Assembly (NCBI RefSeq): GCF_030164425.1
Contig: NZ_JASNJD010000010.1
Location: forward strand, 1 to 64,000
Source: Pseudodonghicola flavimaris
GTDB lineage: Bacteria > Pseudomonadota > Alphaproteobacteria > Rhodobacterales > Rhodobacteraceae
Direction: 5' to 3'
Length of the DNA stretch: 64,000 nt
Shown piece by piece: positions 26,939 through 58,426 of the stretch. Positions within the stretch are counted from its first letter, which is position 1. Every line of letters starts with the position of its first letter. A program made the translations under genes and the position numbers. The notes under the pieces were generated by a model, which did no database searches, had not been told where the DNA came from, and saw only the letters and a program-made list of their open reading frames with translations.

Positions 26939-27831
26939 CCCCGCCGCCCTTCGTGATCTAGATCCAGAGCCAGGTGGTCTTCGGCCATGTCGGCAATTCC
27001 GCCGCGCTTTTCCCAATGCAGGCAGCCGGGCTGGAGGTGGCGGCGATCCCCACGGTGGTGTTCTCCAACACCCCCGATTACCCGACATTGCGCGGCCGCG
27101 CCCTGCCGCCCGAATTCTTCTCCGACCTGCTGCAGGGCGCCCGCGAACGCGGCCTGCCGGAGCGGGCGGAATTCATCCTGACCGGCTATATCGGATCGCT
27201 CGACGTGGCGGAGATGGTGGCGGATTTCGTCGCCGAGGCGAAGGCCGCAAACCCACGGCTGCGCTATCTCTGCGATCCGGTGATGGGCGATGACGCGCCC
27301 GGCCTCTATGTCCCCGAGGCGATTGCCGATGTGATGCGCGACCGGCTGCTGCCGATGGCCGATCTGGCGACACCGAACCCGTTTGAGCTGAGCTGGCTGA
27401 CCGGCCACGAGATCGCCACGCTGGCCGATCTTCGCGCCGCCCGGGCAGAGCTGCATATCGCCCCCGGCGCGGATCTGATCGCCACCGGCTGCAGGCTCGC
27501 CGACACCGCCCCGGGCCGGATCGAAACCGTCCTGCTCGGCCCCGAGGGCATCAGCCGTCACCCGACCGACCATCTGCCCATCGCGCTGCCCGGCACCGGG
27601 GACCTCTTTGCCGGGCTGATCGTCGCGGGCCTGGGGCGCGGGCTGGCGCTGACCGATGCGGTGGAGAACGCCCAGGCGCTGACCTCCCGCGCACTCTGCC
27701 ACGCGAAGGCGCTCGGCGCCGGAGAGGTGGTGTTGAGCGATCCCGGCTTCCGCCGCGCGCTCCTGACGCTGGGACCGGGCGCCGGAGAGGATGCCGCCAC
27801 GCCGCGGGCCCGACCCGGCCAAGGCAGGTAA
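26935..27831 (+). pseudogene. pdxY: Pyridoxal kinase gene with early in-frame amber codon
   Basis: The natural ATG at 26935 overlaps the MOSC stop as ATGA, but codon 9 is TAG (26959-26961). The translation before and after it, MTPPPFVI-stop-IQSQVVFGHVGNSAALFP, aligns with the conserved PdxY N-terminus, where this position is normally serine (VLSIQS-type); TCG to TAG would do it. The rest is intact to 27831, with the ribokinase-fold DPVMGDDA and ATP-site GTGDLFAGLIVAG motifs. A GTG at 26974 could restart translation but would lose the first strand and the substrate-contacting serine. So the gene is probably broken recently, unless the stop is read through or is a sequencing error. Confidence 0.8.
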
Positions 27832-27855: not shown

Positions 27856-28884
27856 TCAGATCATCCGGGTCAGGTCCAGGCCGGCCTGAAACGGGTGCAG
27901 ATCGTCGCTCGGCCGGATTTCGGCCGGGTCGTGGGCGCTGAGATTGGGCGCCCGCCGGTCCTGCGACGGCGACACGCCGAAAAGCTCACGATAGCGCAGC
28001 AGGAAATGCGAATAGGAACCGAAGCCGCAGCGGCTGCTGATCTCGCCGAATTCCAGCGCCGAGCCCTTCACCAGCTTGCGGGCACGGGCCAGCCGGATCT
28101 GGCGGAAGTAATCCGAGGCGGTACAGCCGAAGGCAGCCAGGAACATGCGGTCCAGATGCCGGCGCGACACGCCGACCTGAGCGGCAATGGCGGCGATGCC
28201 GCCGGCGGTGTCGCCGATCCGTTCCTCCATCAGCCGGCAGGCGCCGCGCACTGCCGGCTGGTGGCCAAGGCTGCGCGCCGTCAACAGCCCGTCCTGCGGC
28301 GCCCCCTGAAGCCGCCGCCCGGGATGGCAGATCAGGCTCGCCACCCGGGTCGCCACCACCGCGCCCAGATCGGTTTCGATCACATGCAACATCAGGTCGA
28401 GACAGGCGCTGCCGCCCGAGGCGGTCATCCGCCCCTGCCCGCAGGTGAACAGGCTGCGCAGAAACTCGACCCGGGGAAACAGCTGTTCGAACAGCGGCAG
28501 GTTGTTGAAATGCGCGGTCGCCTTGTGACCGTCCATCACCCCGGCCTGAGCCAGGTGATAGATGCCGCTCTCAAAGGAGCCCAGCGTCTTGCCGAACCGC
28601 GCGAACCGCCGGAGTGCCGCCGCCGTGGCCGCCCCGACATGGTCCTGGTGGCGGAAACTGGCGGTGACGATCAGCACGTCGAACTCCTCCAGCTCCGAGA
28701 TATGTCGCGCCGCCGGGAGGCTCACCCCGGCGCTCGACATCACGCTCGCCTCGTCGTCATGGACGAATTCCCAAGCATAGAACGGCGTCTCGCAGACCGA
28801 ATTGGCCACCCGCAGCGCCTCGATCGCCGAGACGAGCCCCAGCAACTGGAAGGAAGGCTGCAGCAGAAAGGCAAAGGTCTTCAT
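27856..28884 (-). CDS. GlxA-family transcriptional regulator (DJ-1/PfpI + AraC HTH)
   Basis: 342 aa from ATG 28884. The N-terminal ~185 residues are a DJ-1/PfpI-like domain (FAFLLQPSFQLLGLVSAIEALRVAN; GKTLGSFESGIYHLAQAG; TASGGSACLDLMLHVI), the C-terminal ~100 residues an AraC HTH (IAAQVGVSRRHLDRMFLAAFG; SRCGFGSYSHFLLRYRELFGVSPS). Regulators of this type (GbdR, CdhR) control catabolism of betaines, carnitine and amino acids. It is co-directional with the enolase-superfamily and Old-Yellow-Enzyme-type genes and probably controls both divergent arms through the TGGACAT palindrome at 32294-32314. Confidence 0.9.
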   Translation of the reverse strand: MKTFAFLLQPSFQLLGLVSAIEALRVANSVCETPFYAWEFVHDDEASVMSSAGVSLPAARHISELEEFDVLIVTASFRHQDHVGAATAAALRRFARFGKTLGSFESGIYHLAQAGVMDGHKATAHFNNLPLFEQLFPRVEFLRSLFTCGQGRMTASGGSACLDLMLHVIETDLGAVVATRVASLICHPGRRLQGAPQDGLLTARSLGHQPAVRGACRLMEERIGDTAGGIAAIAAQVGVSRRHLDRMFLAAFGCTASDYFRQIRLARARKLVKGSALEFGEISSRCGFGSYSHFLLRYRELFGVSPSQDRRAPNLSAHDPAEIRPSDDLHPFQAGLDLTRMI

Positions 28885-28958
28885 TCGATCTCGGTCTCCC
28901 GCAGCGATCCTCCCCCGCCTGCCGCAGCACTGCAAGGGGGCGGACCGCAAAGACCCGG

Positions 28959-30128
28959 TCAGATCAGGTCCAGCTCGGCCCAGAGCCAGTTTTCTGCAAC
29001 CTCTCGCCGCAGCGAGACGCCGAACCCCGGCCGGTCGTTCACCGGGATGACGCCATTCTTCACCGTGTCCTCGACCGGATCGTCGATCACATCGACATGG
29101 CCGGGGATACGCGCCCAATAGGGAAAATGCTCCTGCCAATAGAAATTCGGCACCGCGGCGCTGAAATGCATGCCCACCGCCGTCGACAATGCCGACGCGC
29201 AGATATGCGGCTGCACCTTCAGCCCGTAGGCCTCGGCCATGGCGGCGATGCGCCGGGCCTCCATCAGCCCGCCGGTGTTGCCGACATCGGGCTGCAGGAT
29301 ATCGGCGGCCCGCGCCTCCAGCACATCGCGAAAGCCGTAGCGGGAATAGAGCCGCTCGCCCACCGCCACCGATTGCGGGATCGCCCGCTTCACCTCCGCC
29401 AGCGCCCTGGTGTCGCCCGGCACGGTGGGCTCCTCGATAAAGCTGATACCGACCTCCTCGAGCGCGTGGCAGAAACGGACGGTATCGTCCGGCGCGATCC
29501 CGGCGGAGAGATCCAGCATCAGCTCGACCTCGGCGCCGACGGCGCGGCGGATCTCCTTCATCCGGTCGAGCGCGCGCCGCAACAGCGACTGATCCGCGAC
29601 CGACCGGCGCGACGGGTGCCGCAGCCGCCCCTCTGCCAAAATCTCGACGAAGGGGTAGAATTTCAGCGCGCCATAGCCCTCTGCCGCCGCCCGTTCCGCC
29701 GCCATCGGCAGATCGGCATCCGAGGTGCAGCCGAAATACCAGCCGTTGCAATAGGCGCGCAGCCGGTCGTTGACCCGGCCGCCCAGAAGCTCATAGGCCG
29801 GCACCCCGAGGGCGCGGGCACGCAGGTCCACCATCGCCTGTTCCACCGCGCTGATCCCGCTCATCACCACCGGGCCGCCGCCCTTGGCCCAGAAGCCGTG
29901 ATCGTAGAACTCGTTCCAGACCCGCTCACTGTCCGAAGGGCTGACGCCGCCGCGCAGATAGCGGTCGAGCACATCCTTGACCATGCCCGCCGCGGCGGTG
30001 GTGCCGGCGCCATAGGCGATCGCCGCCTCGCCCAGCCCGCGGCTGCCGTCCTCGGTTTCCAGTTCCAGCAGAACCGGGCTGATGCCGCCGCTCTCGACCA
30101 GATAGATCCGGGCTTTCACGATTTTCAT
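28959..30128 (-). CDS. Mandelate racemase/muconate lactonizing enzyme family protein (MR subgroup)
   Basis: 389 aa enolase-superfamily enzyme. N-terminal capping domain starts KIVKARIYLVESGG. In the barrel, metal ligands are Asp in ELMLDLSAG, Glu in SFIEEP and Glu in AVGERLYS. The His-Asp dyad of the MR subgroup is visible as PDVGNTGG and VQPHICASALS, and the lysine lies in YGALKFYPF. This suggests a sugar-acid dehydratase or amino-acid/betaine epimerase; the substrate cannot be read from sequence. 11 bases downstream of the OYE-type gene in the same operon. Confidence 0.88.
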   Translation of the reverse strand: MKIVKARIYLVESGGISPVLLELETEDGSRGLGEAAIAYGAGTTAAAGMVKDVLDRYLRGGVSPSDSERVWNEFYDHGFWAKGGGPVVMSGISAVEQAMVDLRARALGVPAYELLGGRVNDRLRAYCNGWYFGCTSDADLPMAAERAAAEGYGALKFYPFVEILAEGRLRHPSRRSVADQSLLRRALDRMKEIRRAVGAEVELMLDLSAGIAPDDTVRFCHALEEVGISFIEEPTVPGDTRALAEVKRAIPQSVAVGERLYSRYGFRDVLEARAADILQPDVGNTGGLMEARRIAAMAEAYGLKVQPHICASALSTAVGMHFSAAVPNFYWQEHFPYWARIPGHVDVIDDPVEDTVKNGVIPVNDRPGFGVSLRREVAENWLWAELDLI

Positions 30129-30139
30129 GTCGGTTCCTC

Positions 30140-32188
30140 TCAGATGGTGCGGCAGAGCCGCGTCGCCTCAAGGATCGCCGCGTGGATATCGCGGGAGGAG
30201 ACGGCATCGCCGATGCGGTAAAGCTGATAGGTCTCCGTCTTGGGCGCGGCGACCGCGCCGCCCTCCGCCATCGCGTAGAGGTCGAAGGCCCCCTTGTTGT
30301 CGGAGCCCTCTGCAAGCTCCCTGTAGAGTTCGTCCATCGGCAGCGTACCGTTTTCGATCACCACGCGGTCGGCCGGCCGCTGGCTCCGCGCGCCGGTAAA
30401 GACGTTCTCCAGCGTCGCCAGCAACCGGTTGTCCCGGCGTTCGATGCCGACCAGCTTGGCATCGGTCAGATGCGTCGCCCCGGCGGCGTAAAAGCCCTTC
30501 ATCATCAGCGGACGCTCGATACCGCTGGTTTCCATTCCGACCATGGAGTCGGGGGTCACGCAGGTCACACGGGCGCCGCGTTCGGCCATGGTGGTGGCCG
30601 CGTTCAGCCCGGTGACAGTGCCGGTCACATCGAAGAACAGCACCTCGCCCTGCATCTCTCCGGGCTGGCCGATCACCTCCCACAGCGAGTCCGCCAGGTC
30701 GGCTCCGGGGATCTCCCGCTCCATCGGATCGGGCAGACCGCCGGTGGCGATGATGACGATCTCCGGCGCGCTCGCCGCGACCGTTTCAGCGTCGGCATAG
30801 CAGTCGTAGGTGATCGTCACCCCCAGACGCTCCAGCTCGCTCAGCCGCCAGTCGACGATGCCGATCAGATCGCGCCGCTTGTACAGCTCGGCCGCCAGCA
30901 GCACCTGGCCACCGGCCTTCGGCGCCGCCTCGAACACGGTGACCTGATGGCCCCGCTCGGCGCAGACCCGCGCCGCCTCCAGCCCGCCGGGACCGGCGCC
31001 GACGATGGTGACCCGGCGCGCCCGGTCGGCCTTGTCGATCAGATGCGGCAGGGTCTTTTCCCGCCCGATCGAGGCATTGTGGATGCAGCTGCCGTGCCAG
31101 GAGCAATAGGTCGCGCCGACACAGGGACGGATCTCGGCCTCGCGGCCCTCGCGCAGCTTCCGCACGATATGCGGATCGGCGATATGGGCGCGGGTCATCC
31201 CCACCATGTCGATCAGCCCCTCGGCAATCGCATAGCGGGCGGTGGCCAGATCGTTGATCCGCGCGGCATGAAACACCGGCAAGCCGACATGCTGCCGGAA
31301 GGCGGCGATGAACTGCAGCTGCGGCGCCAGCCCCAGCGCCATCCCCGGCATATAGCTCGACAGCCCCACCGGTGTGTCGATCCGCCCATAGGTGAGGTTG
31401 AAGAAGTCGACCAGACCGGAGCGTTCGTGGATCCGGCCCATCTCCAGATAGTCGGCATCCGACATGCCGGCATCCTCGCCCTCGCCCACCGCCATGCGGA
31501 TGCTGATCAGAAAATCATCGCCACAGCGGCGGCGCATCTCCTCCAGCACACGCAGGCCGAAGCGGGCGCGGTTCTCGATCGAGCCGCCATAATCATCGGT
31601 GCGGTGGTTCATCAGCGGTGACCAGAACTGGCCGACCAGATGATGGTGAACGTGGATCTCCACCCCGTCCATCCCGGCCTCGCGGCAGCGCCAAGCGGTG
31701 TCCCCGAAGTCGCGCACGATCCGGTCAATGTCGTGCAGTTCGATCTCCTTGGCGAAGGCCCGGTGCGCCGGCTCGCGGAACCGCGACGGCGCCACGATGG
31801 GCAGCCAGTTGTCCGCCCGCCAGTGGCTGCGCCCACCCAGATGGGTCAGCTGCACCATGATCGCGGTGTCATGCCGGTGAATCCGGTCGGCAAAGGCGCG
31901 CAGATGCGGGATCGCCTCGTCGCGGTCCAGCGACAGCGCCCCGAAGACCGAGCCGGAATCCGGCGACACGTTGGAGGAGCCGCCGAACATGATCAGCCCG
32001 ATGCCGCCCTTTGCCTTCTCCTCGTTATAGAGCTGGTAGCGCTCCTGCGGCAGCCCGTCCCGGGCGTGCTGGATCGCATGAGCGGTGGTGAAGACACGAT
32101 TCTTGAGGGTGAGGCCCCGGATCGTCAGCGGCTGCAGCAGCGGATCCCTGGTCGGCGCGGAAGAGCGGGTCGGGTCGGAAGATGTCAT
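30140..32188 (-). CDS. NADH:flavin oxidoreductase, 2,4-dienoyl-CoA-reductase/StcD-like
   Basis: 682 aa from ATG 32188. Residues ~1-370 form an Old-Yellow-Enzyme FMN barrel (LTLKNRVFTTAHA; GMDGVEIHVHHHLVGQFWSP, N-R-T-DDYGGS-x-ENR). A cysteine cluster (CVGATYC, SC-x-HN) suggests a Fe-S site. Then a pyridine-nucleotide-disulphide-type domain with two dinucleotide motifs (VTIVGAGPGGLEAA). This multidomain layout is shared with dimethylamine/trimethylamine dehydrogenases, dienoyl-CoA reductase and proline-betaine demethylases. With a GlxA regulator alongside, N-demethylation of a betaine-like compound is a reasonable but unproven guess. No strong Shine-Dalgarno sequence; GAAAGA lies upstream. Confidence 0.88.
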   Translation of the reverse strand: MTSSDPTRSSAPTRDPLLQPLTIRGLTLKNRVFTTAHAIQHARDGLPQERYQLYNEEKAKGGIGLIMFGGSSNVSPDSGSVFGALSLDRDEAIPHLRAFADRIHRHDTAIMVQLTHLGGRSHWRADNWLPIVAPSRFREPAHRAFAKEIELHDIDRIVRDFGDTAWRCREAGMDGVEIHVHHHLVGQFWSPLMNHRTDDYGGSIENRARFGLRVLEEMRRRCGDDFLISIRMAVGEGEDAGMSDADYLEMGRIHERSGLVDFFNLTYGRIDTPVGLSSYMPGMALGLAPQLQFIAAFRQHVGLPVFHAARINDLATARYAIAEGLIDMVGMTRAHIADPHIVRKLREGREAEIRPCVGATYCSWHGSCIHNASIGREKTLPHLIDKADRARRVTIVGAGPGGLEAARVCAERGHQVTVFEAAPKAGGQVLLAAELYKRRDLIGIVDWRLSELERLGVTITYDCYADAETVAASAPEIVIIATGGLPDPMEREIPGADLADSLWEVIGQPGEMQGEVLFFDVTGTVTGLNAATTMAERGARVTCVTPDSMVGMETSGIERPLMMKGFYAAGATHLTDAKLVGIERRDNRLLATLENVFTGARSQRPADRVVIENGTLPMDELYRELAEGSDNKGAFDLYAMAEGGAVAAPKTETYQLYRIGDAVSSRDIHAAILEATRLCRTI

Positions 32189-32271
32189 CGCGATGTCTTT
32201 CGGTGCTGCCCTGCGGGCAGAGGTTGCCCCCAAACGTTTCGCCAGATTGGCAGAGTCGACTAGTCGCGATC

Positions 32272-32314
32272 TGGACATAATTCATGCCCGATATGGACAT
32301 CACCCGGATGTCCA
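32272..32314. promoter_or_regulatory. TGGACAT palindrome plus extra half-site in a divergent promoter
   Basis: Perfect inverted repeat TGGACAT-cacccgg-ATGTCCA at 32294-32314 and a direct half-site TGGACAT at 32272-32278, 22 bp upstream, in the 249-base region between the OYE-type gene (minus) and the GlpD-like gene (plus). Likely operator of the GlxA-type AraC regulator at 27856. Confidence 0.65.
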
Positions 32315-32437
32315 AAACCGGCAGGCGATCCGTCCAATTTCGGTCTAGGCAAGCTTTCGGCTTTGGCCCGAGACTGACCCGCAGGGCGCAGCCGGTCCCC
32401 TCCGACGCGCAGCCCACGCAACAGAGGACCCCGCCGC

Positions 32438-34000
32438 ATGAGCGACAGCAGGATGCATTCCCTCGACGGCAGCGAATACGATGTCGTCGTGATCGGCGGT
32501 GGCGCCACCGGGGCGTCGGCGACCCAGAACCTGGCCGCCAGGGGGTTCCGGGTACTGCTGGTGGACCAGGGCGATTTCGCCTCCGGCACCTCCAGCCGGT
32601 CGAGCCGGCTGCTTTATTGCGGGCTCGCCTATTTTTCACCCGACTATCCGCTGTGGCGGGCCCTGTTTCATCCGCGCGAGATGCTGCAACGGGTGCGGAT
32701 GGCCCGGCTGGCGATGAAATGCCGGACCGAGCTGGCCACCACCGCGCCGGAGCGGGTCACCGCCTGTGAGTTCGTCTTTCCGGTCAAACGCAACAGCGCC
32801 TATCCGCGCTGGAAAGTGGCGCTCGGCTATCGCGCGCTCAGCCTGTTCGGATCGCCCCGCGCACCGCTGGCCTACCGGCACGAGCCGACGCCCCAGGCCG
32901 CGCGCGGGGGGCTGGTGTCCTTCATGAACCCGGAGGAACTGGCAGGCGTCGCCCGGTTCCGGGAGTATCAGTACAACTGGGCCGAGCGGATCTGCATGGA
33001 CGCGGTGATGGATGCCGAACGGCTCGGGGCGAGAGTGGAAAACTATGTCCGCGTCGCCAGTTTCCGGCGCGACGGCGAAGACTGGGCGCTGACGCTGGAA
33101 CCCGGCGCGCTGCCCGGCCGCCCGCATCAGAGCGGCAATCACCGGGCCGAGGTGCGGACGCGTTTTCTGGTCAATGCCGCCGGCCCCTGGATCGACCGGG
33201 TACTGAAACAGGGGCCCGGCACCGGGGCGCGCCACGTGATCGGCATCAAGGGGGTCAATGTCATGGTCAAGCTGCCCGAGGCCTGCCGCGGCCAGGGGAT
33301 GGAGACCATCAGTTCGCAGGATCAGCCGTTCTACCTGATGCCCTGGGGCGATCATCATTTCTTCGGCCCGACCGAGACCGTCTATGTCGGCCCGCCGGAG
33401 GATGCCCGGGTGGAACCCGGCGAGATCGACTATATCCTCGGCGAGGCGAACCGCGTGTTCCCGGGCTTCGACCTCGGCCGCGCCGATGTGGTCTACGCCT
33501 GGTGCGGGGTGCGGCCGCGCACCGACGATTCCTCCGCCTCCGGCGTCAAATCCTTCACCATCCACGATCTGGCGCGCGAGGGGATGGAGAACGCCATCAC
33601 CGTCACCGGCACCCCGATCATGGTGCACCGTCACGCCGGCCGCCGGATCGCCGCCTGGGTCGCTGCGCGGCTTCGCCCGACCGGAACGCCCGGCACGCTC
33701 GACCCCGGGGCGCGGCACCTGCCCAGCGACGACGGTCCCTCCATCGGAGGCATCAGCGTCACCAGCCTGCGCGCGGCGGCGGCGCAGGAACATGTCCGCA
33801 CCCTCACCGATCTGATGTTTCGCCGCGTCAACCTGGGCTGGCAGGTGGGTATGGGCCTGCCCCATGCCGAGGCGGTGGCCGGCGCCGTCGCCGACCTGCT
33901 GGGCTGGGACGCGACACGGATCGCCCAGGAACTGGCTGCCTACCGCGCCTTCGTGGCCGAGAATTTTCACCCTGCCCCTGCACCGGAGACCGCCGCATGA
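32438..34000 (+). CDS. FAD-dependent oxidoreductase, glycerol-3-phosphate dehydrogenase-like
   Basis: 520 aa. FAD-binding motif DVVVIGGGATGASATQNLAARG, then DFASGTSSRSSRLLYCGLAYF, the GlpD/DAO-type second motif, VNAAGPWIDRVL and a C-terminal domain with CGVRPRTDD. Closest in layout to aerobic glycerol-3-phosphate dehydrogenases, but it faces an amine/betaine-like operon and precedes an ornithine-cyclodeaminase-like gene, so another hydroxy- or amino-substrate is possible. Its stop overlaps the next start as ATGA. Transcribed divergently from the OYE-type gene. Confidence 0.85.
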   Translation: MSDSRMHSLDGSEYDVVVIGGGATGASATQNLAARGFRVLLVDQGDFASGTSSRSSRLLYCGLAYFSPDYPLWRALFHPREMLQRVRMARLAMKCRTELATTAPERVTACEFVFPVKRNSAYPRWKVALGYRALSLFGSPRAPLAYRHEPTPQAARGGLVSFMNPEELAGVARFREYQYNWAERICMDAVMDAERLGARVENYVRVASFRRDGEDWALTLEPGALPGRPHQSGNHRAEVRTRFLVNAAGPWIDRVLKQGPGTGARHVIGIKGVNVMVKLPEACRGQGMETISSQDQPFYLMPWGDHHFFGPTETVYVGPPEDARVEPGEIDYILGEANRVFPGFDLGRADVVYAWCGVRPRTDDSSASGVKSFTIHDLAREGMENAITVTGTPIMVHRHAGRRIAAWVAARLRPTGTPGTLDPGARHLPSDDGPSIGGISVTSLRAAAAQEHVRTLTDLMFRRVNLGWQVGMGLPHAEAVAGAVADLLGWDATRIAQELAAYRAFVAENFHPAPAPETAA

Positions 34001-34947
34001 CCGCCATCCCCTTCCGCGATTTCGACGAGGTTCACGCCCGTGCCCCCTGGGGCCGGCTGATCGACGCGCTGGAAGAGGCGCACCGGCGTGAAAAACCGCA
34101 AAGCGACCAGCTGCGGCTGATGCAGCCGCGCGCGGACGGCCAGCCCGATTTCCTCATCCTCGCCCCGGCCTGGGACCGCGACCGCGCCCTGGGGGTAAAG
34201 CTGGTCACCTCCTTTCCCGAGAACCCCGCGCGCCACGGGCTCACCTCGGTCGGATCGCTGTATATCCTGTTCGATCCAGCCACCGGCAAACCGACCACCC
34301 TGCTCGATGGCGAGGCGATGATCTTCCGCAAGACCGCCGCTGACAGCGCGCTCGGCGCCCGGCTCCTCTCGCAGCCCGATGCCCGGCGGCTGGTAATGAT
34401 GGGCGCCGGGGCGCTGGCCCCCTATGTCATCGACGCGATCCGCCATGTCCGGCCCGGCATCGACGATATCCGGATCTGGAACCGCAGCGGCCACAAGGCC
34501 GAGGCCCTTGCCGAGAGCTGCCGCAGCCGCGGCCTGCCCGCCCAGGCCTGCACCGACCCTGCATCGGCGCAGGCCGAAGCCGATATCGTGATGTCGGCCA
34601 CGATGGCGGAAGAGCCGATCATCCATGGCGATCTCCTGCGCCCCGGCACCCATGTCGGCCTGATCGGCTCCTTCACGCCGCAGATGCGCGAGGGCGACGA
34701 TGCGCTGCTCCGCCGCGCGATGCTCTATGTCGACGATCCTTCGGCGGTGGAGAAATCCGGCGAGTTCACCGGTCCCATCGGCCGCGGGGTGATCACTCCC
34801 ACCGATGTTCTGGGCGATCTCTTCGACCTCTGCCAGGGGCGCTGCGCCCTGCCCGGCCCCGACGACATCAGCCTTTTCAAGAACGGCGGTGCCTCGCATC
34901 TGGACCTGATCACCGCCGGCGTGGTCATGGCCGCCGACCGGTCCTGA
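33997..34947 (+). CDS. Ornithine cyclodeaminase/mu-crystallin family protein
   Basis: 316 aa starting in the ATGA overlap with the upstream flavoprotein gene. Family features: GVKLVTSFPENPARHGL, a substrate-loop LFDPATGKPTTLLDGEAMIFRKTAADSALGA, and a Rossmann half beginning VMMGAGALAPYVIDA (GxGxx-type) with IWNRSGHKAEALAE. Members include ornithine cyclodeaminase, alanine dehydrogenase and imine reductases (ketimine or pyrroline-2-carboxylate). Here an imine/amino-acid reaction coupled to the flavoprotein upstream is plausible. Confidence 0.9.
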   Translation: MTAIPFRDFDEVHARAPWGRLIDALEEAHRREKPQSDQLRLMQPRADGQPDFLILAPAWDRDRALGVKLVTSFPENPARHGLTSVGSLYILFDPATGKPTTLLDGEAMIFRKTAADSALGARLLSQPDARRLVMMGAGALAPYVIDAIRHVRPGIDDIRIWNRSGHKAEALAESCRSRGLPAQACTDPASAQAEADIVMSATMAEEPIIHGDLLRPGTHVGLIGSFTPQMREGDDALLRRAMLYVDDPSAVEKSGEFTGPIGRGVITPTDVLGDLFDLCQGRCALPGPDDISLFKNGGASHLDLITAGVVMAADRS

Positions 34948-34976
34948 CCCTGCCACGGCCCACCGCAGGAGCGGCC

Positions 34977-35236
34977 ATGCATCTGACCGGTTTCAAGATC
35001 CTCACCTTCGACGTCTACGGCACGCTGATCGACTGGGAGGCCGGCATGGCCGAGGGGCTCAGGCCGCTGACCGATCGGCTGCCCGAGGCGGTCCCGCGCG
35101 ACCGGGTGCTGGAAACCCACGCCTTTCACGAAAGCCGGCAGCAGGCGCTGACCCCGGCCAGATGCCAAAGGTGGTTTTCCGCTTCAACTCGATGGCCGAT
35201 TTCGCCGCCGCGCATCAGGCGGAGGTGACGGCATGA
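34977..35236 (+). pseudogene. Haloacid dehalogenase type II gene, internally deleted
   Basis: The start is normal: TGFKILTFDVYGTLIDWEAG contains the HAD motif I with nucleophile Asp. After about 61 residues the reading jumps frame near 35160 into a peptide MPKVVFRFNSMADFAAAHQ ending at TGA 35234-35236, which is the usual C-terminus of type II haloacid dehalogenases (about 225-240 aa). Roughly 150 residues with motifs II-IV are missing, and the two parts are out of frame. Third gene of the flavoprotein - cyclodeaminase operon, now dead. Confidence 0.75.
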
Positions 35237-50236: not shown

Positions 50237-51406
50237 TCAGCCCAGCGGCAACCGCTGGCGAACCAGCGTGGTCCAGTAGGAACAGCCCCAGGCGATCACC
50301 TCGTCGTTGAAATCATACATCGGGTGATGCAGCCCGGCAGAAGGACCGTTGCCGACGTTGATCATCGCCCCCGGCACCTCGTTGAGCATGAAGGAGAAAT
50401 CCTCTCCGCCCAGGGTCTGCGGCATGTCCAGATGCACGTTGTCGACGCCCGCCACCGCCTGCGCGGCCTGCGCCGCCAGCCCGGTTTCACGCTCATGGTT
50501 CACCGTCACCGGGTAGTGGCGGGTGTACTCCAGCTTGCCCTCGCCGCCATAGGCCAGCGCGATATGTTCGACCATCGCGCCCAGCCGGCTTTCGACCATG
50601 TCGCGCACCTCTTCGCGCAGGGTGCGCACGGTGCCGGTCAGTTCCACCGCCTGCGGGATCACGTTGAAGGCATTGCCGGCGTGGATGGTGCAGAGCGAGA
50701 CCACCGCGCTGTCGATCGGATCCTTGTTGCGCGAGGTGATGGTCTGCACCGCTTGCAGCAGCGCCCCGGCGACCGGCAGCGGATCGATGGTCTGCTCCGG
50801 CCGCGCGGCGTGACCGCCGCGACCGGTGATGGTGATCTTCACCTCGTCGACCGAGCCCATGATCGGCCCCGGTGCGAGGGTGAAATGGCCCACCGGCAGG
50901 TTCGGCCGGTTATGCATGCCGTAGACCTCGTCGCAGGGCCAACGGGTGAACAGCCCGTCCTCGATCATCGCGCGGGCGCCGGCGCCGCCCTCCTCTGCGG
51001 GCTGAAAGATCACGATCACGGTGCCGTCGAAGGCGCGGCTTTCGGCCAGATGCTTGGCGGCGCCCAGCAGCATGGTGGTGTGGCCGTCGTGACCGCAGGC
51101 ATGCATCTTGCCCTCGGTCTTCGAGGCCCAGGGCTTGCCGCTTTCTTCATGGATCGGCAGCGCGTCCATGTCGGCGCGAAGCCCGATGCTGCGGCCCGAA
51201 GCGGCGCTCTGGCCGCGGATCACGCCGACCACGCCGGTCTTGCCGATGCCTTCGTACACCTCGTCGACGCCGTATTTACGCAGCGCCTCGGCCACGGTCC
51301 GGGCGGTGCGCGGCAGATCGTAGAGCAGTTCCGGGTTCTGGTGCAGATCGCGGCGGAATTCAGTGAGTTCGGCGACCTCCTTGGCCACCCAGTTCTCGAC
51401 AGCCAT
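50237..51406 (-). CDS. M20 family amidohydrolase (hippurate hydrolase-like)
   Basis: 389 aa. Zinc-ligand motifs of the M20D branch: RADMDALPI, HACGHDGHTTMLLGAA, FQPAEEGGAGA and a C-terminal GGEDFSFM. The dimerisation domain includes GGHAARPEQTIDP. Hydrolyses N-acyl (possibly N-carbamoyl) amino acids. Last gene of the eight-gene operon, 3 bases after the ATC-hydrolase-family gene, so both likely act on one imported N-substituted amino acid. Confidence 0.92.
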   Translation of the reverse strand: MAVENWVAKEVAELTEFRRDLHQNPELLYDLPRTARTVAEALRKYGVDEVYEGIGKTGVVGVIRGQSAASGRSIGLRADMDALPIHEESGKPWASKTEGKMHACGHDGHTTMLLGAAKHLAESRAFDGTVIVIFQPAEEGGAGARAMIEDGLFTRWPCDEVYGMHNRPNLPVGHFTLAPGPIMGSVDEVKITITGRGGHAARPEQTIDPLPVAGALLQAVQTITSRNKDPIDSAVVSLCTIHAGNAFNVIPQAVELTGTVRTLREEVRDMVESRLGAMVEHIALAYGGEGKLEYTRHYPVTVNHERETGLAAQAAQAVAGVDNVHLDMPQTLGGEDFSFMLNEVPGAMINVGNGPSAGLHHPMYDFNDEVIAWGCSYWTTLVRQRLPLG

Positions 51407-51409
51407 GGA

Positions 51410-51907
51410 TCAGGCTTCCTTCTTCTTCATGCGGTAACGGAAATCGCAATGTGACGCACCTTTCATGATGGTCTGGGTGCGGGTCATCTCGATCTCCGGG
51501 TTGTAGCCGATGCAGAAATCGCCATCGCGGTTGCACGACAGCAGGTGGCCGATATCGCCGATCCCCATGTCGCGGTACATCTCGGCATAGCGGCAGCGGG
51601 TGACGTTGAAGTCCATCTTCTCCTCGGAGGCTTCCAGCGTCTCGATCCTGAGCGCGTCCTCGCGGGTCCAGGCTGGCTGGATGGCGGCGAAATCGGTCAG
51701 GTCCGGGGCATGCCCCAGCGCCTCGGCCAGCATCTGGCCCTGTTCGATGGCGGATTTCGAGCAGGCGGCACCGATCACCGCCTCCGCCTCCTCGCGGCCC
51801 GAGCGTTCGGTGATCACGTCGAGTACATGTTTGAGGATCATCGCCTCGATCTTGCGGCGCAGCAGGATCGGGATGTCGTTGAGATCCATACCTTCGGTTT
51901 CGGCCAT
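51410..51907 (-). CDS. L-2-amino-thiazoline-4-carboxylate hydrolase family protein
   Basis: 165 aa. GGAG 8 nt upstream supports the ATG at 51907. Helical N-terminal half (LLRRKIEAMILKHVLDVI) and a C-terminal part with conserved NVTRCRYAEMYRDMG, LLSCNRDGDFCIGYNPEIEMTRTQTIMKGASHCDFRYR, the cysteine-rich signature of the ATC hydrolase family. The founding enzyme opens 2-aminothiazoline-4-carboxylate to N-carbamoyl-cysteine, but the family is broad. Followed immediately by an M20 amidohydrolase that could complete such a route. Confidence 0.8.
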   Translation of the reverse strand: MAETEGMDLNDIPILLRRKIEAMILKHVLDVITERSGREEAEAVIGAACSKSAIEQGQMLAEALGHAPDLTDFAAIQPAWTREDALRIETLEASEEKMDFNVTRCRYAEMYRDMGIGDIGHLLSCNRDGDFCIGYNPEIEMTRTQTIMKGASHCDFRYRMKKKEA

Positions 51908-51921
51908 GGGGAGGTCTCCGG

Positions 51922-53226
51922 TCAGAGGGACAGTTCTTTGTGATCCTGGCGTTTCAGCCAGGCGAGATAGGTGGGCGCCACCCGGCGCACCAGCGCGTGC
52001 AGCGGGAAGGGATGCGGATCGGATACCGGCAAGGCGAGCTCCTCCTCGGGAACCCCGGTCACCGCCCGGGCCAGTTCACGCCCCAGAGAGGTGCCGAGCG
52101 CCACACCGCGCCCGTTGCAGCCGATCCAGGCCCAGCCGTTTTCACCCAGCCGGTGTACCCGCGGGAAGCGGTCCCAGTTCATGCCGATGAAGCCCGACCA
52201 GACATGGGTCATGGTCGGCACTCCCAGGTCGGGAAACGCCTCGGCCAGATTGCGGGCGGCCTTCTGGCGCACCCGGTTGGCGACATTGAAATTGCCCATC
52301 ACCGCGCCGCCGGTGATCAGCCGGTTGCGGGCGTCGTAGCGGAAGAAGCGCAGATCGCCGCGGGTATCCGACACCGCCTGCCGACCCGGCAGAATCTTGG
52401 TGCGCAGGTTGTCGCTGACGGGTTCGGTCGACATCTGCCAGCTCAGCACCGGCACCACGGAATGGGCGATCCGGGGGGCGAGCCGCGACGCGAGTTCCCC
52501 GGTATAGGCGTTGGTGGCCAGGATCAGGGCGCGAGCCTTCAGCGTCCCCTCCGCCGTGCGGATCACCCATTGCGCGCCCTCCCGGGCGAAGCCGACGACC
52601 GGCGATTGCTCATGGATCACTGCGCCCAGCCCCTCGGCGGCGCGGGCCATCTCGCGGGCCAGCGCCAGCGGGTTCACATGGCCGCCGGTGGGGTTGTACA
52701 TGCCGCCGTACCAGAAATCGGTACCGAGGATTTCGGCGGTCTCCCTGGCGTCCTTCAGGACCGCCGGAAAGCCGAACCGCTGCCAGGCATCGACCCGCTT
52801 TTGCGACAGTTTCACCCGACCCGGGCTGTGCGCCGGCTGGAACCAGCCCGCCTGCTCGGCCTCGGCCTGCATGCCGAATTCGCGCACCAGATCGAACAGA
52901 ACGGTGCCGGAATGGCCGATCAGCTTGACCATCCGCTCACCGGCCCCGCCGTAGCGGCTGACCCAGACGTCGGGCTCGGCGCTGGTCAGGATCGGGATTA
53001 CCTGGCCGTTGTTGCGCCCCGAGGCGCCCCAGCCGGCGGCCTTGCCCTCCAGTACCGTCACCGCATGGCCGCGTTTCGCCGCCTCGATCGCCGCGGACAG
53101 GCCGGTGAAACCGGCACCGATCACCGCCACATCGGTTTCTTCGGTGCCCTTGAGCGGCGCGGTGACCGTGCGCTCCGGCGCCGTGGCGGCCCAGATGGAT
53201 TTGGGGAAGTCGACAGACCCGGTCAT
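51922..53226 (-). CDS. FAD-dependent amino-acid/amine oxidoreductase (DAO family, OrdL/PuuB-like)
   Basis: 434 aa. FAD motif VAVIGAGFTGLSAAIEAAKRG and the DAO-type continuation WGASGRNNGQVIPIL; C-terminal signature VWSGFIGMNWDRFPRVHRLGENGWAWIGCNGRGVALGTSLG. Resembles gamma-glutamylputrescine oxidase-like enzymes that oxidise secondary amines or amino acids. It overlaps the aminotransferase gene as ATGA and lies 14 bases before the ATC-hydrolase-family gene. Confidence 0.9.
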   Translation of the reverse strand: MTGSVDFPKSIWAATAPERTVTAPLKGTEETDVAVIGAGFTGLSAAIEAAKRGHAVTVLEGKAAGWGASGRNNGQVIPILTSAEPDVWVSRYGGAGERMVKLIGHSGTVLFDLVREFGMQAEAEQAGWFQPAHSPGRVKLSQKRVDAWQRFGFPAVLKDARETAEILGTDFWYGGMYNPTGGHVNPLALAREMARAAEGLGAVIHEQSPVVGFAREGAQWVIRTAEGTLKARALILATNAYTGELASRLAPRIAHSVVPVLSWQMSTEPVSDNLRTKILPGRQAVSDTRGDLRFFRYDARNRLITGGAVMGNFNVANRVRQKAARNLAEAFPDLGVPTMTHVWSGFIGMNWDRFPRVHRLGENGWAWIGCNGRGVALGTSLGRELARAVTGVPEEELALPVSDPHPFPLHALVRRVAPTYLAWLKRQDHKELSL

Positions 53227-54854
53227 CCCGCGGCTCCTTCTTCTGTCGCAACCGCGGCCTCATGCGGCAGCCAGAACCAGCGCAGCGCCTCTTCCTCGTC
53301 GGGCAGCGCCTGCGGCTCCGGACAGGGCAGACGGCGGGCGGCGGCGATCAGCGCCTGCGCCTCGGCCAGGCAGCTGTCGAAAGCGGGCGGCACCGCCCCG
53401 TCCGGTTGGCCTTCGGACCAGAGCGCCGACAGGCAGTCGGGCGGCGCGTCCTCGACCGGCGGGCGCGCCCGCCAGACGCCTTGGTCCAGATCCAGCGCGT
53501 AATGCGGCAACAGCTCCAGCCCGTGGTCGGCGACAAAGCGGATGGCGGCGGCGATGCGGTCGACATCCTCCTCATCGAAGAACCAGTTCACCCCCAGCCG
53601 GGCCCAGCCGGGCCGGAAGGCAGTATGACCCTCATGCACCGCCGCCTCGTGCCGGCTGCTGGTGCTGCTGTCGATCTGCAAGAGCGCATGGCCGTAGGGG
53701 CCGGCGCAGGAACAGCCGCCGCGCGCCTGGATGCCGAAAAGGTCGTTCAGCAGGGCCACGACGTAATTGTGATGCAGATAGCGATCCTTCACCCGGATGT
53801 TGAAGGAGAAGATACCCAGACGCGGGACGTTGCGCGGCCCCAGAAGCTCCACCCCCGGGATCGCGCGCAGCGCCTCTTCCATCCGCCGGGTCAGCGTGGT
53901 TTCGCGCGCCTCGACCCGGGCATCGTCCATGTCCCGCTTGAGCTGCATCACCATACCGGCGCGGATATTGTCGACGATGGCGGGGGTGCCGCCCTCTTCG
54001 CGGTGCTCGGGGTCACAGACATAGGCGTGGCCCTCCGCCGTGACATAGGACACCGTGCCGCCGCCCACCAGCGTCGGCCGGGCACCGGCGAAGAGGCCGC
54101 GATCGGCCACCAGCACGCCGGAGGCTCCCGGCCCGCCGGGGTATTTATGCGGCGACATCACCGCGGCATCGATCCGGTCGCCGGCGCCCGGCGCGGTCTC
54201 GGCCAGGCGGATCGGCACATAGGGGGCGGCGGCGGCGAAATCGGCGATGCAGAGCCCGCCATGCGCATGCATCAGGCGCGCGATGGCACGCAGATCGGTC
54301 AGCACGCCGGTGACGTTGGACGCGGCGGAAAAAGCGCCGATCTTCAGCGCCGCCCCCTGGTGCCGGTCCAGCGCGCCTTCCAGCGTCTCCAGGCAGATCG
54401 AGCCGCCCTCGTTCAGCGGCACCCGCACCACCGTGGCGCCGCTCTCGCGCCAGGGAAGATCGTTGGAGTGATGCTCATAGGGGCCGACGAAAACCACCGC
54501 GCCCTGCCCCAGGCCCATCATCGCCAGCGCCCGCACCAGCTTGTCCACCGCGCCGGTGGCCCCGGCGCCGGTGAAGATTACCGCGTGATCGTCATCCGCG
54601 CCGACCGCCGTACGCACCGCCTCGCGCGCCATCTCCCGCAGCTGGGTGGTGCGCCGGCCGCAAAACGAGGTCTCGGTATGGGTGTTGCCGTAATAGGGCA
54701 GCACATGGGTGCGGATCGCATCCTCGATGAACGACAGCGACCGCCCGGACGCGACATAATCCGCATAGATCAGCGCCCGCGGCCCGAAGGGACCGGGAAT
54801 AGCGCTGCCCTCGCCGATCAGAGCGCGGCGGATATCTTTGAATTCCAGTGACAT
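53223..54854 (-). CDS. Aminotransferase class V-fold PLP enzyme (cysteine-desulfurase-like), extended C-terminus
   Basis: 543 aa, clearly longer than the ~400 aa usual for the family. Core marks: YADYVASGRSLSFIEDAI, YYGNTHTETS, FTGAGATGAVDKLV, YEHHSNDLPWRE, SNVTGVLTD and the PLP lysine in MSPHKYPGGPGASG. A GGCSCAGPYG segment holds two cysteines near the position of the desulfurase loop, but sulfur mobilisation is not proven. The C-terminal ~100 residues are acidic and not recognised. Between ABC importer and flavoprotein genes; may release sulfur or an amino group from the imported compound. Confidence 0.85.
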   Translation of the reverse strand: MSLEFKDIRRALIGEGSAIPGPFGPRALIYADYVASGRSLSFIEDAIRTHVLPYYGNTHTETSFCGRRTTQLREMAREAVRTAVGADDDHAVIFTGAGATGAVDKLVRALAMMGLGQGAVVFVGPYEHHSNDLPWRESGATVVRVPLNEGGSICLETLEGALDRHQGAALKIGAFSAASNVTGVLTDLRAIARLMHAHGGLCIADFAAAAPYVPIRLAETAPGAGDRIDAAVMSPHKYPGGPGASGVLVADRGLFAGARPTLVGGGTVSYVTAEGHAYVCDPEHREEGGTPAIVDNIRAGMVMQLKRDMDDARVEARETTLTRRMEEALRAIPGVELLGPRNVPRLGIFSFNIRVKDRYLHHNYVVALLNDLFGIQARGGCSCAGPYGHALLQIDSSTSSRHEAAVHEGHTAFRPGWARLGVNWFFDEEDVDRIAAAIRFVADHGLELLPHYALDLDQGVWRARPPVEDAPPDCLSALWSEGQPDGAVPPAFDSCLAEAQALIAAARRLPCPEPQALPDEEEALRWFWLPHEAAVATEEGAAG

Positions 54855-54864
54855 TTACAAAACC

Positions 54865-56508
54865 TCAGGCGGCATCCGGGCGAAACGACGGGGGCGTCCA
54901 GTCGCGGCCGGGGATGGAAGACAACAAGTTCCGGGTATAGGGGTGCTGCGGGCTGGCGAAGATCTCGGCCGTCAGCCCGTGTTCGACGATCTCGCCCTTC
55001 TGCATGACGATGATCCGGTCGCAGAGCTGGGCCGCCACCCGCAGGTCGTGGGTGACGAAGAGCAACGACAGGTTCAGCCGGTCGCGCAGATCGGCAAGCA
55101 GCTTCAGCACCTGCGCCTGCACCGAGACGTCGAGCGCCGAGACCGGTTCATCAGCGACGATTACCTTCGGCTCCAGCGCCAGCGCCCGGGCGATGCCGAT
55201 CCGCTGCCGCTGCCCGCCCGAGAACTCATGCGGGAACCGGTTGGCGGCGGCCGGCGACAGTTCGACCAGCTCCAGCAGGCGGCGGGCGTCGGCGCGGGCC
55301 TTGTCGGGATCGACGCCATGGACGATCGGGCCCTGGGCGATCAGATCGACCACCCGCTTGCGCGGGTTGAGCGAGGCCATCGGGTCCTGGAACACCATCT
55401 GGATATGCTTGCGCATGGCCCGCAGCTCCGCCGGCGAACAGGCCAGCAGGTCCTTGCCGTCCATCTCCACCTTGCCGGCGTCGCATTCCAGCAGCCGGGT
55501 GACGATACGCGACACCGTGGTCTTGCCCGAGCCGGATTCCCCCACCACGCCCAGGGTTTCGCCCTGATGCAGCTGAAAAGTCAGATCCTTGACGGCGGTG
55601 ACCGCCTTGCGCTTGCCCGACAGCAGCCCGCCGCGGGCGGCGAAGGTCTTCTTCAGCCCGGTGCCCTTCAGCACCACCGGCGCCTTGGTCACCGGCTTGA
55701 CCGGCGGCGGCGTCAGCGCCGGCACCGCACCGATCAGCGCACGGGTATAGGCATGCTGCGGGTTGTTCAGCACCTCTTTCGCCGGCCCCTGTTCGACCAT
55801 TTCACCCCGGCACAGGACCGCAACCTTGTCGGCGATCTCTGCCACCACGCCGAAGTCGTGGGTGATGAAGAGGACGCCGGCGCCCTCCTGTTCCTGCAGC
55901 TCGCGGATCAGCTTGAGGATCTGCAGCTGCGTGGTCACGTCGAGCGCGGTGGTCGGCTCGTCGGCGATGATCAGCTTCGGCGACAGCGACAGCGCCTGGG
56001 CGATCATCACCCGCTGCCGCTGACCGCCCGAGATCTGGTGCGGATAGGCGTTATAGGCCGAGGCGGGATCGGGGATGTGCACCCGTGTCAGCATCTCGAT
56101 GGCGCGCGCCTTGCGCTCGGCCTTGTTCATCTTCGTGTGCAGCCGCAGCACCTCGTCCAGCTGCCAGCCCACGGTCTTCTGCGGGTTGAGCGCGGTCATC
56201 GGCTCCTGGAAGATCATGGCGATATCCTCGCCCCGGATGCCACGCATCTCGGTCTCGGTCTTGGCCAGCAGTTCGTCGCCCATGAAGCGGATCGCACCGC
56301 CGGCGACATGCACGTGGGGTTCCGGCAACAGCCGCATGATGGCGCCCGCGCACAGCGACTTGCCAGACCCGGATTCGCCGACCAAGCAGACGATCTCGCC
56401 CGGGTTGATGGTCAGGTCGAGCCCTTCGAGCGCAAAGGGCCGGTCGGCGCCCTTGGGCAGGGCGATCTTGAGGTCGCGGATTTGCAGGATGGGAGGCGTA
56501 TCTGTCAT
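54865..56508 (-). CDS. Dipeptide-type ABC transporter, fused double ATPase (DppDF-like)
   Basis: 547 aa from ATG 56508, which overlaps the permease stop as ATGA; the longer frame is unsupported. Two complete nucleotide-binding domains in tandem: Walker A GESGSGKS and GESGSGKT, signatures SGGQRQR in both, Walker [13 protein letters not shown] and [12 protein letters not shown]. Each ends in an oligopeptide/dipeptide-type tail. A fused DppD-DppF, as in GsiA. Powers import of a peptide-like or opine-like compound. Confidence 0.95.
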
Positions 56509-57383
56509 TGTTTCTTCTGCCTCGGGTTCAGCGCGTCGTTCAGCCCTTCGCCGAGGAGCGAGAAGGACAGCACGGTCAGGACGATGGCGATGCCGGGAAT
56601 GACGGCGCAATAGGGGGCGGAGCGCAGCACAGCGCGGCCCTGGCCGATCATGTTGCCCCAGCTGGCGTAGTTGGGATCCCCCAGCGCCAGGAAGGCCAGC
56701 GCGCTTTCCAGCAGGATCGAAAGCGCCATGATCACCGAGGCATAGACCACGATGGGCGGCAGCGCGTTGGGCAGGATTTCCTTGAAGATGATCGCGGTGT
56801 TCGACACCCCGAGGTTGCGCGCCGCATCGACGAATTCACGCCCCCTCAGCGACATGAACTCGGCCCGGACCATGCGCGCCGGCGCGGTCCAACTGACGAT
56901 ACCGATGGCCAGCGTGATCCATTCGATCTTCGATCCCAGGATTGCCACCAGCGTCAGCAGCAGCACGAAGTTCGGGATGGTCTGGAACGCCTCGGTCACC
57001 CGCATCAGCACGTCATCGACCCAGCCGCCGAAATAGCCGGCAAGCGCGCCGATGACGACGCCGATGGCGATGGCGACCAGGGTCGCAACCACCCCGATCA
57101 GAAGCGAGATGCGGGCACCGTAGAACACGCCCGACAGCACGTCGCGGCCCAGCTGATCGGTGCCCAGGGGTGTCGACCAGTCGGTGAAGGGCGGCGTCAG
57201 CGGCACGCCGGCACGGCGCAGCGGATCGTCGGGATCGACGATGCCCGCGGTCAGCGCCATCAGCACCACCAGAACGAAGATCGCCAGTCCCAGGAGGGCG
57301 GCCCGGTTGCGCCGGTAACGGCGCCAGAACACCACCAGGCGGGGCGGTTCGGCGGGGGAAAGATCGGTGTCGAGCGAGGTCAT
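56505..57383 (-). CDS. Dipeptide-type ABC transporter permease (DppC-like)
   Basis: 292 aa with six membrane spans. N-terminal cytoplasmic helix FWRRYRRNRAALLGLAIF, then TPLGTDQLGRDVLSGVFYGARISLL, the DppC/OppC signature, and the EAA loop RGREFVDAARNLGVSNTAIIFKEILPN. Overlaps both neighbours by 4 bases (ATGA). Confidence 0.94.
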   Translation of the reverse strand: MTSLDTDLSPAEPPRLVVFWRRYRRNRAALLGLAIFVLVVLMALTAGIVDPDDPLRRAGVPLTPPFTDWSTPLGTDQLGRDVLSGVFYGARISLLIGVVATLVAIAIGVVIGALAGYFGGWVDDVLMRVTEAFQTIPNFVLLLTLVAILGSKIEWITLAIGIVSWTAPARMVRAEFMSLRGREFVDAARNLGVSNTAIIFKEILPNALPPIVVYASVIMALSILLESALAFLALGDPNYASWGNMIGQGRAVLRSAPYCAVIPGIAIVLTVLSFSLLGEGLNDALNPRQKKQ

Positions 57384-58369: not shown

Positions 58370-58426
58370 GTCGCGGTCCTTCGCGGTGCGGGCGGGCACC
58401 CTGCGGCGCCCGCCCGTCGGATCAGG

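Follow-up and report, generated by a model that had tools for sequence, protein, structure and literature searches.

Which compound is broken down by the products of a divergent five-gene cluster in Pseudodonghicola flavimaris, and through which DNA element is the cluster controlled? The cluster lies in a stretch of 64,000 nucleotides (assembly GCF_030164425.1, contig NZ_JASNJD010000010.1, forward strand; genome size 5.3 Mb), which was analysed as a whole and is called the window below. A sequence-only reading of this DNA had placed two gene arms under the control of a GlxA protein acting at a TGGACAT palindrome, and had proposed an N-methylated or cyclic, betaine-like amino acid as the substrate. 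Here we propose a GlxA-run, substrate-induced catabolic regulon of two divergent operons, acting on an N-methylated proline- or pipecolate-type compound that is perhaps hydroxylated. We hold this account, taken as a whole, tentatively and at slightly less than an even chance.

Organization and recurrence of the five-gene set

Frame calls and profile searches bore out the five genes, their families and their divergent arrangement. Two operons, OYE-MR-glxA leftward and GlpD-OCD rightward, leave a single gap of 249 bp. On the minus strand, the first gene (30140..32188) encodes an OYE/TMADH-type flavoenzyme, P0002, of a family annotated as HpbA or N-methylproline demethylase. It is followed by the gene of an MR-subgroup enolase-superfamily enzyme, P0001 (28959..30128), a predicted racemase or dehydratase acting adjacent to a carboxylate, and by glxA (27856..28884), which closes the arm and encodes a GbdR-type AraC regulator of 342 amino acids with a putative DJ-1/PfpI-like sensor domain. 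On the plus strand, the gene of P0003 (32438..34000), a DAO-family, GlpD-like FAD oxidoreductase predicted to be an amine or imino-acid dehydrogenase, shares a four-base overlap with that of an OCD/mu-crystallin protein, P0004 (33997..34947), a predicted cyclic ketimine (pyrroline/piperideine-2-carboxylate) reductase. The block had been drawn to 35236; it ends at 34947. None of the five proteins reached the cut-off of an NCBIfam model (best 25 rows each), so the automatic names galactonate dehydratase and glycerol-3-phosphate dehydrogenase are to be avoided.

The same five genes were found in two further places (compared loci and genomes carry L and G numbers). Plasmid pNCHU2750b of Neorhizobium sp. 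NCHU2750 (L030) encodes relatives with 59% (glxA), 69% (MR), 65% (OYE), 65% (GlpD) and 58% (OCD) identity. Genome G749 (L045), from another family of the same class, encodes relatives with 49, 58, 56, 54 and 50% identity in the same order; its arms are rearranged and their contents unchanged. Because all five genes recur in both, the set is more than a group of chance neighbours.

The set is rare. Relatives of P0001, the own genome included, were found in 4 of 394 genomes of the family (cut-off 1e-90), 1 of 390 of the order and 3 of 385 of the class (1e-110), and 2 of 398 of the phylum (1e-120); P0003 had relatives in 5 of 198 genomes. The P0001 search gave six other genomes (G004, G152, G358, G749, G869 and G1168), and the surroundings of the relatives were inspected over about 20 kb in G004, G152, G749, G869 and G1168. 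Among these, all five genes were present in G749 alone. G1168 has MR, OYE and a distant GlpD-like gene, and in G004 (MR 66%), G152 (MR 42%, OCD 48%) and G869 (MR 49%) the remaining genes were not found in the roughly 20 kb inspected. The MR orthologue of G004 (L037, 9731-10891) stands alone amid ribosomal or housekeeping-looking frames.

Parts of the set are more widely combined. OYE and MR genes are adjacent in the window, L030, L045, L031 and L078. In Methylobacterium nodulans and G1168, the adjacent pair is accompanied by genes for a LysR protein, for amino-acid transport and for a more distantly related GlpD-like protein, and no GlxA relative was found in the locus. Shinella zoogloeoides has OYE, GlpD and OCD genes side by side. 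Ten loci, L005-L014 (Roseovarius, Planktomarina, Haliea and others), have OYE relatives of 57-63% identity; in nine of them, L013 being the exception, an OCD gene (36-41%) is divergent to the OYE gene. By eye, L005 and L013 continue with MoxR-like and VWA-like frames.

Direct repeats in the promoter regions

The palindrome TGGACATCACCCGGATGTCCA (TGGACAT-N7-ATGTCCA; 32294..32314, without strand) is exact and is the sole exact match in the genome. The additional half-site that had been described with it is also real (32272-32278), and a fourth, CCGTCCA (32330-32336), had been overlooked. The starts of the four half-sites are spaced by 22, 14 and 22 bp; they form two head-to-head direct repeats, with the palindrome at their junction. 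The presumed operator of the OYE arm is TGGACAT-N15-TGGACAT (32272..32300, plus strand, no mismatch), and that of the GlpD arm is TGGACGG-N15-TGGACAT (32308..32336, minus strand, two mismatches). The longest OYE frame opens at ATG 32278, within an operator half-site. We judged ATG 32188 to be the probable start, because similarity to relatives sets in about 10-17 residues downstream of it.

In the sense of the gene, the unit reads ATGTCCA-N15-ATGTCCA with a period of 22 bp. It precedes both arms of all three clusters, and its orientation to the gene is constant in six of six arms. The repeat was defined from the window and Neorhizobium, and G749 then served as the test. One mismatch each was found in the repeats of the OYE and GlpD arms of L030 (11961-11989 and 12050-12078) and of L045 (13003-13031 and 5945-5973). 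The two repeats are 7 bp apart in the window and 60 bp apart in Neorhizobium, and belong to separate promoters in G749.

Several controls were made. For the four arms outside the window, 0, 1, 0 and 0 of 2000 single-base shuffles matched the observed score. When periods of 12-39 were scanned in the four promoter regions with up to two mismatches, period 22 gave six matches, period 15 gave three, which we leave unexplained, and four other periods gave one each. In 951 kb of 59 other loci, no repeat match with up to one mismatch was found, and there were four with two mismatches, two of which are one place represented twice. Twenty loci do not enter this control: the three clusters themselves, together with stretches from the own genome or from G749, including those fetched for carrying the pattern.

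Against the assignment of an operator to each arm stand the two mismatches of the GlpD-arm site and the counts in the own genome, which holds 19 repeat matches in all with up to two mismatches, among them one further match with a single mismatch, compared with seven for a reversed control. In view of the 19 matches, the GlpD-arm site would not convince if taken alone.

The palindrome itself had been read as the operator, in which case one GlxA dimer on TGGACAT-N7-ATGTCCA would govern both arms. Its exactness and its uniqueness in the genome fit this explanation. With up to two mismatches it occurs at 27 places in the genome, compared with one for a reversed-pattern control, so that near-matches are common, whatever their cause; with up to three mismatches the window holds four matches, compared with 1.5 expected, a number equalled by 6 of 100 shuffles. 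In L030 and L045 the best match to the palindrome has at least three mismatches in each, so it is not conserved there, while each direct repeat is. The available part of a published study (PMC5806209) describes a CdhR footprint with GGTCGC half-sites, a 15-bp spacer and direct repeats, and calls the sites of GbdR, SouR and ArgR very similar. Since the direct repeats are conserved, the palindrome is not, and direct repeats are the reported target of the related regulator CdhR, the palindrome most likely arises from two direct repeats facing each other 7 bp apart. Control through the palindrome is thus improbable, and the conservation in three clusters favours one direct repeat per promoter.

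At 9-11 bases past the inner half-site there is a triplet that is CTA in four of the six arms, CTT in one and GTA in one; it is possibly a -10 element. The outer half-site of the OYE arm also builds a small dyad like ATGTCCA-N3-TGGGCAT. The dyad is present with changes at the OYE-arm sites of all three clusters and is weak in the GlpD arm.

The GlxA regulator

The GlxA protein has an AraC-type helix-turn-helix (HTH_18, 72.4 bits) and resembles GbdR across its length: the top NCBIfam model is GbdR (residues 3-315, 216.9 bits, under the equivalog cut-off of 480). Its DJ-1/PfpI match is below the cut-off of 26.6 (22.2 bits, E 1.4e-4). Orthologues occupy the equivalent position in L030 and L045, and in all three clusters the OYE arm ends with glxA. 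A candidate direct-repeat site with a spacer of about 15 bp, as in GbdR/CdhR regulons, precedes the target operon in the six arms.

We infer that the GlxA protein, as a regulator of the GbdR/CdhR type, would bind one repeat of 22-bp period before each operon and activate transcription when an inducer is present. It may also raise its own level, given the place of glxA at the end of one arm. The earlier proposal that GlxA controls the cluster gains support from the conserved set and from the sequence conservation of the candidate operator.

Enzymes and proposed pathway

P0003 scored 145.5 bits with DAO and 142.8 bits with the GlpD model, whose cut-off is 360. In a midpoint-rooted tree of 24 rows, P0003 and the proteins of L030, L022, L045, L061, L062, L070, L023 and L064 form a group of nine at 100/99. 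P0003 thus groups with GlpD-like proteins of hpb-type ((hydroxy)proline-betaine) clusters. A GlpD-like FAD enzyme such as those of L061 and L062 is shared with the window in this group, the gene's presence being judged in those clusters only. L061, from plasmid pPAN2 of Paracoccus pantotrophus, comprises within about 16 kb hpbA, a betaine transporter, P5CR-like, GlpD-like and Rieske genes, hpbD, a formaldehyde dehydrogenase gene, OCD and a proline-racemase-family gene; its GlpD-like and OCD proteins are 44% and 39% identical to those of the window. In L062 (Rhizobium AB2/73), a betaine transporter, OYE, a Rieske-type gene, ETF, ETF-QO and formaldehyde-detoxification genes lie near the GlpD-like gene. 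L070 is unannotated and has an OYE gene, L064 has another context, and the GlpD-like gene of L023 adjoins frames that by eye resemble a carnitine-dehydrogenase set.

Among ten plasmid places picked from the 30 listed of 47 records with a GlpD match, five have an OYE relative within 12 kb and five have an OCD relative; one of the ten, H11, had also come up among the OYE matches. GlpD-like and OYE genes occur together at the plasmid places L030, L031, L033, L034, L044, L056 and L059 as well; these were picked for being in more than one match list and are not counted here.

P0002 contains Oxidored_FMN (203.1 bits) and Pyr_redox_2 (55.1 bits). Its family is labelled HpbA in the L032 and L061 records and N-methylproline demethylase in L057, with 46% identity to the L032 protein and 50% to that of L057. 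A tree of 26 rows without an outgroup (bootstrap and SH-aLRT) gave three well-supported groups: the window group (nine rows), the HpbA group (five rows: L032 and L061, which are annotated, L062, L070 and L047) and 12 others including L057. The window and HpbA groups together are separated from the 12 others at 100/99. L047 is a second OYE gene of the own genome (contig C33, 8688-10778; 47%), with no Rieske-like frame seen alongside. At residues 356-371 of P0002, all 26 in-group rows (24 loci and the window) have Ala in place of the second Cys in the TMADH/DCR cluster motif. Their C-[IL]-H-N segment contains a His; the residue at this position is Val or Gln in the outgroup and among the solved relatives shown. 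The family possibly carries a Cys3His iron-sulphur cluster. No solved relative of P0002 exceeded 205 bits among the best 60 of 162, and there seems to be no solved structure of the family among these.

P0001 matched MR_MLE_C (201.2 bits), and its alignment contains the K-x-Y motif, the D/E/E metal ligands and the Asp-His dyad of the MR subgroup, with residue roles and positions that we take to be those of the subgroup. The closest solved protein, 2poz, is named just a putative dehydratase. The hydroxyproline-dehydratase model gave 23.5 bits (cut-off 500). Judged by an identity of 24% over 213 residues (E 8e-4), P0001 is not HpbD. P0004 matched OCD_Mu_crystall (164.5 bits). Its solved relatives are 7rbp (the best, with a family name only), 4bv8, 2i99 and 6t3e, of which 4bv8 and 6t3e are ketimine reductases.

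In the proposed pathway, the OYE protein would oxidatively strip an N-methyl or other N-alkyl group off a tertiary cyclic amine, and the GlpD-like flavoprotein would oxidise the resulting or the parent amine. Reduction of a cyclic ketimine by the OCD protein would yield an amino acid of the proline or pipecolate type. The MR enzyme may set the C2 stereochemistry or dehydrate a hydroxylated ring acid, an HpbD-like role filled from another subgroup. An N-methylated proline- or pipecolate-type substrate is favoured, and the grouping of the GlpD-like protein, the labels of the OYE family and the ketimine-reductase relatives of the OCD protein suggest that the earlier N-methylated or cyclic amino-acid proposal was broadly right. 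A quaternary betaine is less likely, as the cluster has no Rieske or HpbD gene.

A number of observations weigh against this pathway. Relatives of the GlpD-like protein also occur in aminoethylphosphonate-type and Amadori-type clusters. P0002 is 44-46% identical to the HpbA rows, compared with 49-50% to L031, L033, L057 and L069, and "HpbA" is a label taken from the records. The sisterhood of the window and HpbA groups depends on the root: with outgroup L041, whose branch length of 10 makes it unsure, the two form one clade (99%), whereas midpoint rooting leaves HpbA outside. Among the best 60 of 158 solved relatives of P0001, no MR-branch protein has an assigned function. The top NCBIfam model of P0004, pyrroline-2-/piperideine-2-carboxylate reductase, scored 277.5 bits, under its cut-off of 322. 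The window cluster has no adjacent transporter, and that of Neorhizobium is of the dipeptide and not the betaine type; in the own genome, the protein most similar to the Neorhizobium binding protein reaches 34% identity, and two permease-like frames come after its gene.

In a bolder version of the proposal, a cyclic amino acid that is N-methylated and perhaps hydroxylated would be degraded by a pathway not described before. An MR enolase would replace HpbD, the HpbA-family demethylase would have a 3Cys-1His Fe-S cluster, GlxA would act through one direct repeat per operon, and the genes would have spread across families of one class, with one occurrence seen on a plasmid. We consider this version rather doubtful.

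Alternative substrates

A quaternary betaine (proline betaine or hydroxyproline betaine) could be the substrate if a Rieske enzyme encoded elsewhere carried out the first demethylation. The genome encodes a Rieske protein on contig C7 that is the closest to that of the P. pantotrophus hpb cluster (63% identity), and L047 provides a second HpbA-group OYE. The C7 gene, however, adjoins reductase-like and dimethylglycine-dehydrogenase-like frames; we read this locus as probably a glycine-betaine route, whose service in the present pathway is still conceivable. No Rieske gene was found among the cluster genes of the three clusters, no betaine-type transporter was seen in them, and a search of the genome for HpbD at E<=1e-10, made without a positive control, gave no match. 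A tertiary amine or N-methyl amino acid is likelier than a quaternary betaine, given the lack of a Rieske gene in the three clusters and of a genomic match to HpbD. We regard the quaternary substrate as unlikely.

Slightly less probable again is an Amadori (N-fructosyl) or other N-glycosyl or N-alkyl amino acid, perhaps fructosyl-proline, from which the OYE and GlpD proteins would remove the N-substituent. Agrobacterium F2 has relatives of the OCD, GlpD-like and OYE genes with SIS, frlC and frlR beside deoxyfructosyl-amino-acid genes, and relatives occur with SIS and isomerase genes in Microvirga and, by eye, in S. meliloti. Branches of the GlpD tree outside the window group likewise belong to aminoethylphosphonate-type clusters or lie with SIS and FrlC-like genes. 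The GlpD and OYE proteins of these Amadori-type loci occupy branches separate from those of the window, however, and no SIS or FrlC-like gene was seen in the three five-gene clusters (the window and L045 being judged by eye from frames). This alternative retains some weight, since the breakdown of proline-type Amadori compounds would call for comparable chemistry.

A sugar-acid or glycerol-phosphate route, with galactonate dehydratase and GlpD, is suggested by the names dgoD and glpA that automatic annotation gave to the Neorhizobium genes, and we find it very improbable. The galactonate dehydratase model scored 215.1 bits with P0001 against a cut-off of 311, and the GlpD score of P0003 is likewise under its curated value. 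In E. coli GlpD, the Arg of the motif HGGLRY binds phosphate. The window group (four rows) has Ala at this position and the five rows grouping with it have Gly; the Arg is present in 9 of the 24 rows, including L024, L025 and L066. P0003 thus shows neither the curated score nor the Arg of GGLRY expected of a glycerol-3-phosphate dehydrogenase, and the partner proteins resemble amine enzymes.

That P0003 is a PbfD-type N-methyl-aminoethylphosphonate oxidase (an activity described for PbfD in the available part of PMC10590968) is hardly credible. In its favour, relatives of 35-37% identity, which may be PbfD proteins, are encoded amid aminoethylphosphonate genes in L066 (annotated) and in L024 and L025 (by eye). 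Against it, these relatives lie on a separate branch and keep the Arg of HCGLR[HY] that is Ala in P0003, and no phosphonate genes were seen in the window cluster.

Neighbouring genes and transporters

The cluster has as neighbours a pyridoxal-kinase-like gene (26974-27831) and the gene of a PcaR-type regulator, neither of which seems connected with it. In Neorhizobium, the right arm opens with a four-gene dipeptide-type transporter, which is absent from the cluster in the window and from that in G749. Relatives of the binding protein of this transporter, at 52% identity, are encoded in a GlpD-like locus of G183 and in an MR-relative locus of Bosea. We do not claim the 34% match of the own genome as an orthologue of this transporter, as nothing links its locus to the pathway. 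A dipeptide-type transporter in the window (54.8-60.0 kb) was rejected as a counterpart, with only 26% identity to the Neorhizobium binding protein. By eye, it belongs to a second amine-type block (50237-60019) that comprises the transporter (54865-60019), a DAO-like frame (51922-53226), a class-V-aminotransferase-like frame (53223-54854) and an amidohydrolase-like frame.

Comparison with known systems

The sequence-only reading had named no published cluster with this exact gene set, and our literature search by titles and abstract starts, which left most subscription papers uncovered, found none; the homarine-catabolism literature, covered in the same way, gave no such cluster. The cluster offers a compact set for assigning function to the 2poz-like branch of the MR subgroup and to the GlpD-like branch that recurs with N-demethylase-like enzymes. 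The candidate operator may be used to find the regulon elsewhere, and the sequences of this OYE family contain a hint of unusual iron-sulphur ligation.

Three known systems share features with the cluster. Like the GbdR, CdhR, ArgR and SouR regulons of Pseudomonas, as far as the available part of PMC5806209 describes them, it has a GbdR-like AraC-family regulator and candidate direct-repeat sites with a 15-bp spacer; here, the half-site is TGTCCA and not GGTCGC, the period is 22 and not 21, and there is one site per divergent arm. Pathways with a 3-hydroxyproline dehydratase (of the LhpJ or proline-racemase type) and a pyrroline-2-carboxylate reductase (PMC5144071, PMC4113996, both seen in part) likewise combine a possible dehydratase with an OCD-type ketimine reductase, but LhpJ is assigned there to the muconate-lactonizing subclass, whereas P0001 belongs to the MR subgroup. 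The PbfD-type oxidases and P0003 are both FAD-dependent amine oxidoreductases of the wider PF01266 group; the phosphonate gene context and the GlpD-motif Arg set them apart.

The closest system is the hpb cluster of P. pantotrophus, which resembles the window cluster in encoding an HpbA-family OYE, a GlpD-like FAD enzyme from the group of P0003, and proteins of the OCD family and the enolase superfamily. Unlike it, the window cluster lacks a Rieske demethylase, HpbD and a betaine-type transporter, its enolase is of the MR subgroup, and its regulator is GlxA, where L061 has TetR and LysR genes. Since two defining features, the Rieske enzyme and HpbD, were looked for and not found, we file the cluster as a variant of the betaine and N-methyl amino acid catabolic clusters and not as an hpb member. 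Its parts are of known kinds; to judge by titles and abstract starts, no paper found in our literature search, with most subscription papers uncovered, joins them to an MR-subgroup enzyme and a GlxA regulator.

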